A stretch of DNA of 34,011 bases from an uncultured Verrucomicrobia subdivision 3 bacterium (GTDB lineage: Bacteria > Verrucomicrobiota > Verrucomicrobiia > Limisphaerales > UBA8199): positions 1 to 34,011 of the forward strand of contig CAIWMU010000267.1 of the NCBI GenBank assembly GCA_903913865.1, given 5' to 3'. The notes under the pieces are model-generated. The model searched no databases. It was given only the letters and a program-made list of their open reading frames with translations, and was not told the DNA's origin. A program made the position numbers and the translations under genes. Positions 4,933 through 19,293 of the stretch are shown here, one piece after another (the stretch's first letter is position 1; the number at the start of each line of letters is the position of its first letter).

Positions 4933-5019
4933 GGGCGTTCACCGGTTTCCCGCGAGGGATCAGTCCGGTCACTGTTGAGCCCGGCAGGGCCGGTCTGAAC
5001 AGATGAGAACTGACCCCAT
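4933..5019. repeat. Degenerate palindromic element ending ATGAGAACTGACCCC
   Basis: It begins GGGCGTTCACCGGTTTCCCG, continues with a damaged GATCAGTCCGGTCAC arm, and ends ATGAGAACTGACCCC (5003-5017). The same order of blocks is seen at 6420-6574, so this is a second, more eroded copy of that element. Confidence 0.55.
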
Positions 5020-5032
5020 GGCGTTCGGGGGG

Positions 5033-5111: not shown

Positions 5112-6596
5112 ATGTATTCTGGAGACATGGGGTCGGCCAACATTCTGGCAGCGGCAGGCGTCCTGGTTTTCACCGGGGCGAGCTTTTTTTTTGCCCTGGC
5201 TGAAACGGCTCTATTCTCATTGGGTGCCTGGCAGGTCAAGCTTCTGGCGGAGAGAAACCCGGTCAAGGGTGGCATCGTGGCCTCGCTGCTGGCGAATCCG
5301 CAGGTGCTGATCGCCACAATCGCCCTTGGAAATTCTTTTGCGCTGGCGGCGATGCTGGCGGTTTGTTTCTGGATGGGGTTGCGCGGGGATTGGCCCTGGA
5401 TGTTCTCGGTGCCGGGGTTGCTGGTGCTGTCCCTCGTCGGAGGGGAGGTGCTGCCGAAAACCCTGGCGGTGCGGCGTCCGGAGGTTTGGGCGTTGCGGTT
5501 GGCGCGTCCGCTTACGTTCATGATGTTGTTTTCGGGTCCGCTGTGTCGGGTTTCGGAGTGGATGTTTTCTTCCATCATCCGTTTGGGGACGCGCACCCTG
5601 AAGGCTGGTCAAAGGGCCGAGGGGGCGGGGGCGAGGAACCCGGGAGCGGGGGATGCACAATCTGCCCTGACGGATGCTGATTATCAGGAGCTGGTGGAGC
5701 TGGCTTTCCAGAGCGGCACGCTGGAGCTTTCGGAGAAGGAGATCATCCTGCAGATTGTTTCACTGGACCGCAGGACTGTGAAGGATGTTTTGCGGCCCCG
5801 GTCTTTGCTGGCAGCGATTCCGGATGACCTTTCGATCGAAGAGATGGTTGCGGCTGCGAGGAAGTACCGGCATGGGCGTTTGCCGATTTATGATGAATCC
5901 CCGGATACCATCGTGGGGGTGCTGAACACGCGGGCGTTCCTGTTGAATCCGGAGGGGGACCTGGCTGATGTGATTGACTTTCCCTCGTTTGTGCCGGAAT
6001 CGATGAATCTGCTGCAGTTGTTCATCAGCCTGCAGCGGCAGGGTCGCGGGCTGGCGATCGTCTTGGATGAGTTCGGGGGCACGGCCGGTGTGGTTGGGTT
6101 GCAGGACATTCTGGAGGTGATCATCGGCAGGGTGCGCCCGGATACGGGGCTGGCAGGGATGGTGTTGAAGGAGATTGGCGCCGGGCGGTGGCGGGTATCC
6201 GGTGCGGTTCGGATTGATGATTTCCGCAGGGTATGCCCCGGGATCGGCACGGTGCCGGAGGTGGAAACAATGGGGGGCTTGCTGACGCTGCTGCTGGATG
6301 TGGTGCCCGGGTTGGGGGATTCAGCATCCTACCGGGGGCTGAAATTGACGGCGGTGGCTGTAGAGGAACGGCGGGTGCGGGAACTTCTGGTCGAGACATC
6401 CAAGGGCGGGGGCGAAGGGAGTGGGCCGGTTTCCCGGGAGGAGTCAGTCGTCAGTTCTTCCAAACGACCCAACGAAACGGGTGGCGCGTTCTCCAAGCTC
6501 GTTGACCGATTTCCCGTTCAGGGGTCAGTCCTCACTTTTTTTAAACGACAAAAAAAGATGAGGACTGACCCCATTCACTCGGGGGGGGCGGCATGA
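5112..6596 (+). CDS. CNNM/CorC (HlyC/CorC) family membrane protein, copy 1
   Basis: This 494-residue protein has the full layout of the family: an N-terminal CNNM membrane domain (about 5-180, with FFALAETALFSLG and GGEVLPKTLAVR), a CBS-domain pair (about 215-335, with DEFGGTAGVVGLQDILE) and a CorC_HlyC ligand-binding domain (about 350-430). Characterised relatives are linked to Mg2+/Co2+ efflux or resistance; the substrate here is unknown. The last 60 or so residues do not belong to the family: they are a translated palindromic repeat, ending KKMRTDPIHSGGAA. The stop overlaps the ATG of the next paralogue by four bases, so the three copies probably form one operon. An in-frame ATG at 5127, preceded by GGAG, is an alternative start. 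Confidence 0.88.
   Translation: MYSGDMGSANILAAAGVLVFTGASFFFALAETALFSLGAWQVKLLAERNPVKGGIVASLLANPQVLIATIALGNSFALAAMLAVCFWMGLRGDWPWMFSVPGLLVLSLVGGEVLPKTLAVRRPEVWALRLARPLTFMMLFSGPLCRVSEWMFSSIIRLGTRTLKAGQRAEGAGARNPGAGDAQSALTDADYQELVELAFQSGTLELSEKEIILQIVSLDRRTVKDVLRPRSLLAAIPDDLSIEEMVAAARKYRHGRLPIYDESPDTIVGVLNTRAFLLNPEGDLADVIDFPSFVPESMNLLQLFISLQRQGRGLAIVLDEFGGTAGVVGLQDILEVIIGRVRPDTGLAGMVLKEIGAGRWRVSGAVRIDDFRRVCPGIGTVPEVETMGGLLTLLLDVVPGLGDSASYRGLKLTAVAVEERRVRELLVETSKGGGEGSGPVSREESVVSSSKRPNETGGAFSKLVDRFPVQGSVLTFFKRQKKMRTDPIHSGGAA
6420..6574. repeat. Palindromic REP-like element inside the end of the CNNM gene
   Basis: GGGGTCAGTCCTCAC followed by seven T (6521-6542) is mirrored by seven A, then GATGAGGACTGACCCC (6550-6572), forming a nearly perfect 22-bp stem over a loop of about seven bases. 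Before it, 6501-6516 reads GTTGACCGATTTCCCG, also found at 19076-19091. A degenerate half-copy (GGAGTCAGTCGTCAG, then TTCCAAACGAC) lies at 6440-6470. The block order matches 4933-5019. I infer a mobile, REP-type repeat; no transposase is present in the window. Confidence 0.75.
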
Positions 6597-7579
6597 GCGG
6601 GGGATTGTTTTGGGTCGGACTCGTGGTCGCGCTGCTGGTTTCGTTCCTGCTTTCCGGGATGGAGGCTGGGGTTTTTGCACTGAGCCGCTTGAGGATTCGG
6701 CAGCAGCTGCGGGCTGGGCAGTCCTCCGCAGGGGTGCTGCATCGTTTTCTGGAGTGTCCGGAGAATTTTCTTTGGACAATTCTGGTGGGGAACACGCTTG
6801 CGAATGTTTATGTGCTCTGGGTGCTGGCGTTTTTTCTGAGGCAGTGGCTGGGTGGATGGAGGCTGGGGTTCGGGTTGTTTTTCGGGCTGGTAGTGTTGCT
6901 GCTGTTCGCCTTTTTCGATCTGCTTCCGAAGATGCTGTTCCGGGCTTTTCCGAACCGGTTGTGTGTTCTTTCGGCGCGTCCCTTCCAGGTGATTCACTGG
7001 ATTTTGCGTCCGCTGGTGTGGCTGGTGGAGTGGTGCTCGGGACTGTTGCTCAGGCTTCGGGGAGGCACGACGTTCAAGGGATACCTGTTCGGTAATCGTG
7101 AGGAGTTGCGTTTGGTGATGCAGGAGTCGGCGCAGGGGTTGAGTTCCGAGGAACGGTCATTGATCAATCGTGTGCTGGATCTACAGAGCCTGACGGTGAG
7201 CAAGGTGATGACACCACTGGAAAAGGCGGTGATGGTGCCGACCCAGATGCGGGTGGAGGAGGTGCTGGTGCTGGCGAGGGGGAAGCGGTTCAGCCGGATT
7301 CCGGTGTCGGAAACCCGTGGGGGAGTGGTGAGGATCGTGGGGTTGCTGGCTCTGGATGATCTGCTGTTCGGACAGAATGTTGCACCGGGACGCACGGTTG
7401 GGGAGTTTTTGCGGCCAACACTGTTTTTGGAGGAGGATTCGCATCTTGAGGTGGCGCTCCGGCGGATGCAGAGGGGTGGAATCCGTCTCGCCATCGTATT
7501 GTCGCGGGATGGGCGGGAGATCGGAATTCTGGGTTTGCAGGACGTCTTGAGGCCCATCTTCGGGGAGGTTTCGCTCTGA
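6593..7579 (+). CDS. CNNM/CorC family membrane protein, shortened copy 2
   Basis: This 328-residue paralogue has an N-terminal membrane domain (about 1-145, opening with a hydrophobic stretch and LSGMEAGVFALSRLRI) and a CBS pair (about 190-325, with SKVMTPLEKAVMVP). It ends right after GLQDVLRPIFGEVSL, so the CorC_HlyC C-terminal domain is absent. The usual DE(F/Y)GGT signature before that motif is replaced by SRDGREIG, and the GE-x-lPK membrane motif by FDLLPKMLF, so ligand binding may differ. The ATG overlaps the stop of copy 1 (ATGA), and copy 3 starts one base after its stop, arguing for co-translation and possibly a mixed complex. Confidence 0.85.
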   Translation: MSGGLFWVGLVVALLVSFLLSGMEAGVFALSRLRIRQQLRAGQSSAGVLHRFLECPENFLWTILVGNTLANVYVLWVLAFFLRQWLGGWRLGFGLFFGLVVLLLFAFFDLLPKMLFRAFPNRLCVLSARPFQVIHWILRPLVWLVEWCSGLLLRLRGGTTFKGYLFGNREELRLVMQESAQGLSSEERSLINRVLDLQSLTVSKVMTPLEKAVMVPTQMRVEEVLVLARGKRFSRIPVSETRGGVVRIVGLLALDDLLFGQNVAPGRTVGEFLRPTLFLEEDSHLEVALRRMQRGGIRLAIVLSRDGREIGILGLQDVLRPIFGEVSL

Positions 7580-7580
7580 T

Positions 7581-8912
7581 ATGGCCGCGAATGAGACGAT
7601 GAATCTTGGGTTGCGCGCCGGGGCGGTTCTGGTGCTGGTGATGCTGAACGGCTTCTTTGTGGCGGCCGAGTTCGCCCTGGTGAAGGTGCGGGACACGCAG
7701 CTTGAGCCGTTGATCAAAGGCGGGGACAGGCGGGCAAAGCTGGCGGGGTTTATCCTGCACCGGCTGGATTCGTTCCTGAGCGCGGCACAACTGGGGATCA
7801 CCCTGGCGAGCCTCGGACTCGGGTGGATAGGGGAGCCGGTGTTCACGGGGTTGCTGGCCCCGGTATTTGCCTGGGTGGGGATTGAATCGGACCAGGTGCG
7901 GCATGTGCTGGGGTTCGCGATCGGGTTCTCGGCGCTGACCTTTCTGCATATCAGCGCCGGGGAGCAGGCACCGAAGTGGCTAGCGATTCAAAAACCACTG
8001 CCAACAACACTTTGGATTGCCTATCCGATGCTTTGGTTTTACCGGATTTCCTATCCCTTTGTCGTGGTGTTGAACCTGTTTTCGCAATGGCTGCTGTTGC
8101 AGGTGGGGATCAAGCCGGTGGCGGAGGGGGAGGGTGGACACTCGGAGGATGAGTTGCGACTGATGCTGGCCGCCGGGTTGAAGCGGAACGGCGCAACCGC
8201 CCTGAGCCGGGAGATCCTGCTGAATGCACTGGATTTGAGGCGGCGACTGGTCAGGGAGGTGATGCGGCCGCGCCAGGAGATCGTGCCGCTGGACACGGCA
8301 GCTGCCATTTCTGAATGCCTGGATGTGGCTGAAAGGACCCGGTATTCGCGCTTTCCGCTATGCCGGGATGGGGATCTGGACCAGTCGATCGGGGTCATTC
8401 ATATCAAGGATCTCTTCGCCATGCGCTCAAGGGTGGCCACTGCGGCAGAACTGACCCCGGTTGCGCGGAAGGTCATTTATGTGCCGGAGACCGCCCGGCT
8501 TGAAAAGTTGCTGCGGCTGTTCCTGGATCGGAAGCTGCACCTGGCGATTGTGGTGGATGAATATGGTGGAACGGTTGGGATGGTGACACTGGAGAACATT
8601 CTGGAGGAACTGGTGGGCCAGATTCAGGATGAGTTTGATCAGGAGAAGCCGTTGCTGGTGAGGAAGGATGATTCAACCTGGGATGTCTCAGGTGCCCTTC
8701 CTTTGCATGAGTTGGAAGAGTTGTTGGGGCAGACTCTGGCGGAGGAGGGTATTTCGACGGTGAGCGGGTGGGTGACGTTGCGTCTTGGTGGCTTTCCGAA
8801 GGTGGGTGACGTGATCTCAGTTGGAGGCCATCAGCTGAGGGTGGACCGGACGGATTCGAGCAGGGCAGCGCAGCTGACCCTGACCCGCGAAAGCGAAGCC
8901 GATAGTCCGTGA
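7581..8912 (+). CDS. CNNM/CorC family membrane protein, copy 3
   Basis: This 443-residue protein shows the complete family architecture: CNNM membrane domain (about 10-190, with FVAAEFALVKVRDTQLEPL and SAGEQAPKWLAIQKP), CBS pair (about 215-340, with REVMRPRQEIVPLD and DEYGGTVGMVTLENILEEL) and a CorC_HlyC domain (about 355-435). It is closest to the standard form of the three and is likely the core functional unit. Its role in divalent cation export is known for relatives only. The start is one base past the stop of copy 2. The gene converges on the minus-strand carotenoid gene, with 14 bases between the two stops and no obvious terminator. Confidence 0.9.
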   Translation: MAANETMNLGLRAGAVLVLVMLNGFFVAAEFALVKVRDTQLEPLIKGGDRRAKLAGFILHRLDSFLSAAQLGITLASLGLGWIGEPVFTGLLAPVFAWVGIESDQVRHVLGFAIGFSALTFLHISAGEQAPKWLAIQKPLPTTLWIAYPMLWFYRISYPFVVVLNLFSQWLLLQVGIKPVAEGEGGHSEDELRLMLAAGLKRNGATALSREILLNALDLRRRLVREVMRPRQEIVPLDTAAAISECLDVAERTRYSRFPLCRDGDLDQSIGVIHIKDLFAMRSRVATAAELTPVARKVIYVPETARLEKLLRLFLDRKLHLAIVVDEYGGTVGMVTLENILEELVGQIQDEFDQEKPLLVRKDDSTWDVSGALPLHELEELLGQTLAEEGISTVSGWVTLRLGGFPKVGDVISVGGHQLRVDRTDSSRAAQLTLTRESEADSP

Positions 8913-19100: not shown

Positions 19101-19115
19101 ATGGCATCTTTCCGC

Positions 19116-19163
19116 CGCGCCAACGGCGCACTCTATGTCAACATCGGATGCGCCGTTGGCGCG
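19116..19163. repeat. Perfect 15-bp inverted repeat with 18-base loop
   Basis: CGCGCCAACGGCGCA (19116-19130) is exactly mirrored by TGCGCCGTTGGCGCG (19149-19163). A further direct half-copy, GCGCCAACGG, lies at 19091-19100. No T-run follows, so it is not a standard terminator. It lies 130 bases before the GNAT start. Confidence 0.8.
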
Positions 19164-19293
19164 GTCGGAGGGGATCCGTTGAGGGCGGGGTGTGGGCGGC
19201 TTGTGAAGAGAGAGGGGAGGCCGTCCGTTGGTGCGGGGGGATGAGGAGCGATATGACACCCCCCCGGTAGAAGCTGCGCGGTAAGAAGGGATC

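Follow-up and report, generated by a model that had tools for sequence, protein, structure and literature searches.

In a verrucomicrobial genome, the first gene of an array coding for CNNM-type proteins (copy 1) very probably acquired a C-terminal tail when copies of a palindromic repeat were inserted between the end of its CorC_HlyC domain and an old ATGA overlap with the next gene, the reading frame being kept. The array lies in the window, i.e., the whole 34,011-nt stretch of DNA analysed, which is contig C267 of a 6.27-Mb genome in 267 contigs. According to the open reading frame list and Pfam, it comprises, all on the plus strand, the CNNM/CorC-type copy 1 (5112..6596, 494 aa, domains CNNM, CBS, and CorC_HlyC), the CNNM-type copy 2 (6593..7579, 328 aa), and the CNNM-type copy 3 (7581..8912, 443 aa). 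The named relatives closest to the copy 1 protein belong to subdivision 3 Verrucomicrobia, e.g., UBA693. CorC_HlyC, the last Pfam domain of copy 1, ends at residue 429, and the frame stays open up to residue 494, where its TGA overlaps the ATG of copy 2 in the sequence ATGA (6593..6596, plus strand). About 60 residues beyond the conserved domain read through palindromic repeats; the sequence-only reading had described a frame crossing a REP-like element and stopping at ATGA, and the open reading frame 5112-6596 agrees with it.

The tail contains two units of a dispersed repeat, named family A here: an intact one of 84 bp (6500..6583, plus strand, residues 463-491, nhmmer 78.7 bits) and a partial one upstream of it (6422..6471, plus strand, residues 437-454, 18.8 bits, E 1.5e-4), both placed by iterated nhmmer over the stretches collected for the analysis, to which this E value refers. 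The partial unit appears degenerate, with weaker support than the intact one. Together the two span 162 nt (6422-6583), corresponding to residues 437-491. The palindrome of the intact unit has its left arm at 6521..6542 and its right arm at 6551..6572 (both plus strand, inverted repeat I17 in the inverted-repeat scan of the window); the arms are 22 nt each, 91% complementary, and separated by an 8-nt spacer, which bears out the stem of about 22 bp reported earlier. The repeat origin of the tail, also proposed in the sequence-only reading, stands, while its single element has to be replaced by two units and a larger repeat-derived part. Elsewhere, the tail region as a whole is matched best by contig C11, with 78% identity over 6430-6586, the inter-unit spacer included. 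We infer two separate insertions, one preceding the other. A further family A unit is located upstream of the gene array (4936..5029, plus strand, 46.8 bits).

The long tail of copy 1 is present in none of the relatives examined (the best 80 of 120 relatives, a set of loci sharing some genomes with the 58-genome set used below). In 74 of these 80 loci, 6 to 20 residues (median 7) follow the RRVREL-type anchor, compared with 69 in the window; of the six loci without a tail length, two (L187 and L188) are cut by contig ends, and the other four, in which the anchor sequence differs, can be seen to end early. The in-frame repeat is thus a property of a copy 1 reading frame whose measured relatives lack it, and the search for the same tail in distant orthologues, suggested by the sequence-only reading, returned none. 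With copy 1 as the query, matches were obtained in 56 of 58 genomes, its own included, and in 49 of the 55 other genomes the best match reaches only to residue 429-444 of 494. The exceptions are G003, in which the match continues to residue 473 through two stops and the genome's own frame ends 3 residues after RELLVE, G008 and G056, in which the matches reach contig ends, and G025, G039, and G057, with weak matches (E 1e-15 to 1e-18).

The stop within ATGA is probably the old one, since the NTGA overlap is common in relatives devoid of the repeats: 51 of 78 loci that contain the stop (from the best 80 of 120 relatives; L187 and L188, cut by contig ends, were left out) have it with a frame that stays open into copy 2, one of them as CTGA. 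In the nearest relative, a member of the same genus, copy 1 is about 70% identical, and in the same-genus locus L127 the overlap is TTGA, with no repeats. A two-sequence alignment with G001 across the junction was poor, the junction being too divergent for a clean alignment, and was not used. With NTGA as the ancestral type of junction, it is probable that the repeats were inserted ahead of the old stop without disturbing the frame, and they would therefore sit within the gene end and not past a lost stop. It is unlikely that they landed instead in a spacer following an old copy 1 stop, whose later loss let the frame run on to copy 2; such a history could draw on the 25 of 78 loci with a junction other than the NTGA overlap (best 80 of 120) and on the frequent location of repeats in this genome just past a stop, e.g., in L104 and L097, but it has to face the 51 of 78 relatives, L127 among them, which have the overlap without any repeat. 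The comparison of orthologues proposed earlier as a way of finding an ancestral stop did reveal short ends, while the lost stop it presupposed is made unlikely by the common occurrence of the overlap in relatives.

Insertion upstream of the old stop would require that the inserted repeats happened to read open and that their net length preserved the frame, so that copy 1 would have been extended by about 55-60 residues, probably unstructured, and the stop/start overlap would have survived. The nhmmer model gave 47 near-full-model hits, of which 45 were distinct (full or deleted units) and 44 were aligned, the deleted copy L102:1478-1543 being left out. These 44 units give 264 unit-frame combinations, of which 81 contain no stop (19 of 132 in the orientation seen here). 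Openness is not rare, and the open frame through the repeats is a modest coincidence or the result of a modest filter. The two units of the tail are read in different phases, so selection for one particular peptide is not suggested. An AlphaFold model based on a 30-sequence alignment, of modest overall confidence (pLDDT 67.4, pTM 0.37), gives pLDDT below 50 for residues 432-494 and block means of 80-86 for residues 351-430. Values below 50 are also found in other segments of copy 1, e.g., 166-184, and for the tail they are to be expected in part, as none of the aligned relatives extends over it; the low pLDDT is for the same reason only suggestive of disorder. The tail, presumably translated, is probably floppy, and most likely tolerated, not functional.

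The insertion might instead have been useful, either because a hairpin within a translated gene preserves or strengthens the coupling of copy 2 or because the tail itself has a role. In one version, selection kept the insertion because only in-frame ones leave copy 2 coupled, the hairpin being an operon module and the tail its by-product. Both forms are very unlikely, even though the ATGA overlap is retained and the hairpin, ending about 20 nt before it, is strong: the predicted RNA fold of 6511-6620 has an energy of -51.2 kcal/mol (z -5.71, none of 200 shuffles as stable), and that of 6400-6600 a z of -2.59 (2 of 200 shuffles as stable). In the predicted fold, part of the copy 2 AUG is base-paired to the flank of the repeat unit. 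Nevertheless, the predicted exposure of this AUG in the 6500-6640 context amounts to 0.38 when the repeats are present and 0.36 when they are removed; it is as low or lower in 68 of 300 shuffles and in 22 of 50 relatives (50 of the 51 overlap loci from the best 80 of 120, the CTGA locus left out), and it varies from 0.19 to 0.39 depending on the stretch folded. For positions -13..+6, too, the exposure is not low, with 251 of 300 shuffles at the same or a lower value, and no conservation is seen, as no examined relative carries the insertion. Masking of the copy 2 start by the hairpin was rejected since the controls revealed nothing unusual, and the earlier suggestion that the hairpin tunes copies 2 and 3 finds no support in these values. 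In RNAalifold, 1 of 13 pairs is changed on both sides over the 44 units (covariation term 0.11), and because of this weak covariation no RNA role is claimed for the repeat. Rfam at gathering scores finds two tRNAs only in the window, and a terminator scan marks the hairpin as terminator-like on the minus strand only (10 sites, against a mean of 5.5 in shuffles).

A false join in this fragmented assembly of 267 contigs, to which the location of several repeat copies near contig ends might point, is hardly credible, as the genes on either side of the repeat are arranged as in the relatives (copy 2 comes next in 76 of 78 loci from the best 80 of 120, no adjacent copy 2 being found in the other two) and the ATGA junction is intact.

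The arm of the palindrome, GGGGTCAGTCCTCA, is present in 73 exact copies in the 6.27-Mb genome, 41 forward and 32 reverse, and its reversed pattern, used as a control, in none; the search for further copies of the palindrome recommended by the sequence-only reading is thereby answered. Among the stretches collected from the own genome, 72 distinct contexts of GGGGTCAGTCCTCA were divided by simple sequence patterns into 23 of family A and 49 of family B, in which TTGACA comes directly after the arm. The family A unit is 82-102 bp long (66 bp in one deleted copy) and consists of CGTTGACCGATTTCCCGC, the palindrome with a variable middle, and CGCTCGGG. A 96-base stretch of the unit was searched for in 20 genomes and gave 64 matches in the own genome, 5 in a genome of the same genus, one short match in a genome of the same family, and none in the remaining 17, which would so far make family A almost confined to this genus. 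The bare arm is found in 6 of 58 genomes, the own one among them, with 126 copies in G006, 5 in G001, 3 in G017, 2 in G044, and 1 in G049; the reversed arm gave one match across all relatives, in G047. G006 belongs to the same family, and the family A unit has a single short match there in spite of the 126 exact copies of GGGGTCAGTCCTCA, which appear to be a separate expansion of the arm. A literature search covering titles and the beginnings of abstracts brought up no paper recognised as describing the family A/B repeat.

The likely source of the mobility of the repeats is a resident Y1 (IS200-like) transposase, since the GGGGTCAGTCCTCAC arm is common to the repeat and to the terminal repeats of its gene. 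The genome contains 8 matches to PF01797 (Y1_Tnp), and one of them, L035, a 346-aa open frame, has inverted family B arms, GGGGTCAGTCCTCACTATTGACAG, on both sides, separated by about 1.1 kb, so that a Y1-type transposase associated with the arm, which the sequence-only reading had proposed to look for, is found at one of the eight matches. No arm is present near the other seven in the flanks examined, and no full family A unit beside any of the eight, some flanks being cut by contig ends in both cases. In relatives, the only two arm copies of G044 bracket the Y1_Tnp open frame L207, and one arm of G001 adjoins another, L211. The L035 transposase may also mobilise family A, with which it has the arm in common. 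Three further Y1_Tnp genes located near contig ends, L036, L037, and L038, are flanked instead by sequence of the type GGGTCAAnCCATAGnATTnGGCATTT, perhaps a repeat family of their own.

Comparable in-frame repeat insertions have been described before in other bacteria. According to PMC3733652, palindromic repeats occur inside open reading frames, their ends included, repeat clusters encode 43-82 residues in two species, and Y1 tyrosine transposase genes lying between inverted terminal repeats are called TIRYT, some of whose terminal repeats have the motif GGGGWSAS in common. The GGGGTCAG of the arm described here fits this motif, a Y1 gene lies between inverted repeats as at L035 and L207 for the family B arm, and the repeats are dispersed here too, like the dispersed single or paired TIRtrons of the same paper (PMC3733652). 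Family A differs from TIRtrons, as they are presented there, in a longer conserved unit around the arm and in that full family A units were not observed on the flanks of any Y1 gene. With the intragenic REPs of the GTAG and CGTC classes (PMC3733652), it shares the location of palindromes inside open reading frames; unlike them, the arm begins with GGGGTCAG and the gene overlap was kept by the insertion. Inspected by eye, family A ends carry no GTAG or CGTC tag, the units running from CGTTGACC to CTCGGG and the arm starting with GGGG. The Rickettsia palindromic elements (RPE), which PMC3733652 cites, are comparable by their description as palindromes within protein genes, and their host differs from the present one. 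What distinguishes the present case is the repeat class, which differs from the GTAG and CGTC repeats covered by PMC3733652, and the operon stop/start overlap preserved in spite of the insertion. It is a documented example, from a verrucomicrobial genome, of a protein made longer by a mobile palindrome, and it leaves the general view unchanged.

Gene ends apparently supplied by the repeat are not unique to copy 1, as several other open frames of the genome end inside the arms. Seven of at least 130 aa (L005, L021, L030, L078, L083, L093, and L098) have an identical TGA as their stop, located near 1494-1496 in the sequence that continues the family B arm, which suggests that the family B repeat may often replace gene ends. 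Four of the seven were scanned with Pfam: L083 is a histidine kinase with HATPase_c reaching residue 405 of 421, L078 is an NAD-binding protein with domains up to 239 of 309, and L030 and L098 have no Pfam domain. In L095 (1497-1556), a single family B palindrome contains the ends of two convergent genes, one for an ABC transporter ATPase and the other for a transglutaminase-like protein. Long minus-strand open frames passing through repeats in L102 and L109 were rejected, since their Pfam domains start after the repeat and they look like spurious 5' extensions. In L090, a family B arm lies in frame within a variable loop of a TPR protein; its counterpart in G001 has no arm and a loop of similar length, so that an insertion is not proven there.

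The window contains a second palindrome at 19115-19164, with arms CCGCGCCAACGGCGCA.. and ..TGCGCCGTTGGCGCGG of 24 nt, 88% complementary. Similar text is found at other loci of the genome, e.g., L102, and it may perhaps represent a further repeat family. At the beginning of the contig (1-1092), a 264-bp unit is repeated in tandem to give four copies, the later ones sharing 82-86% identity with the first.
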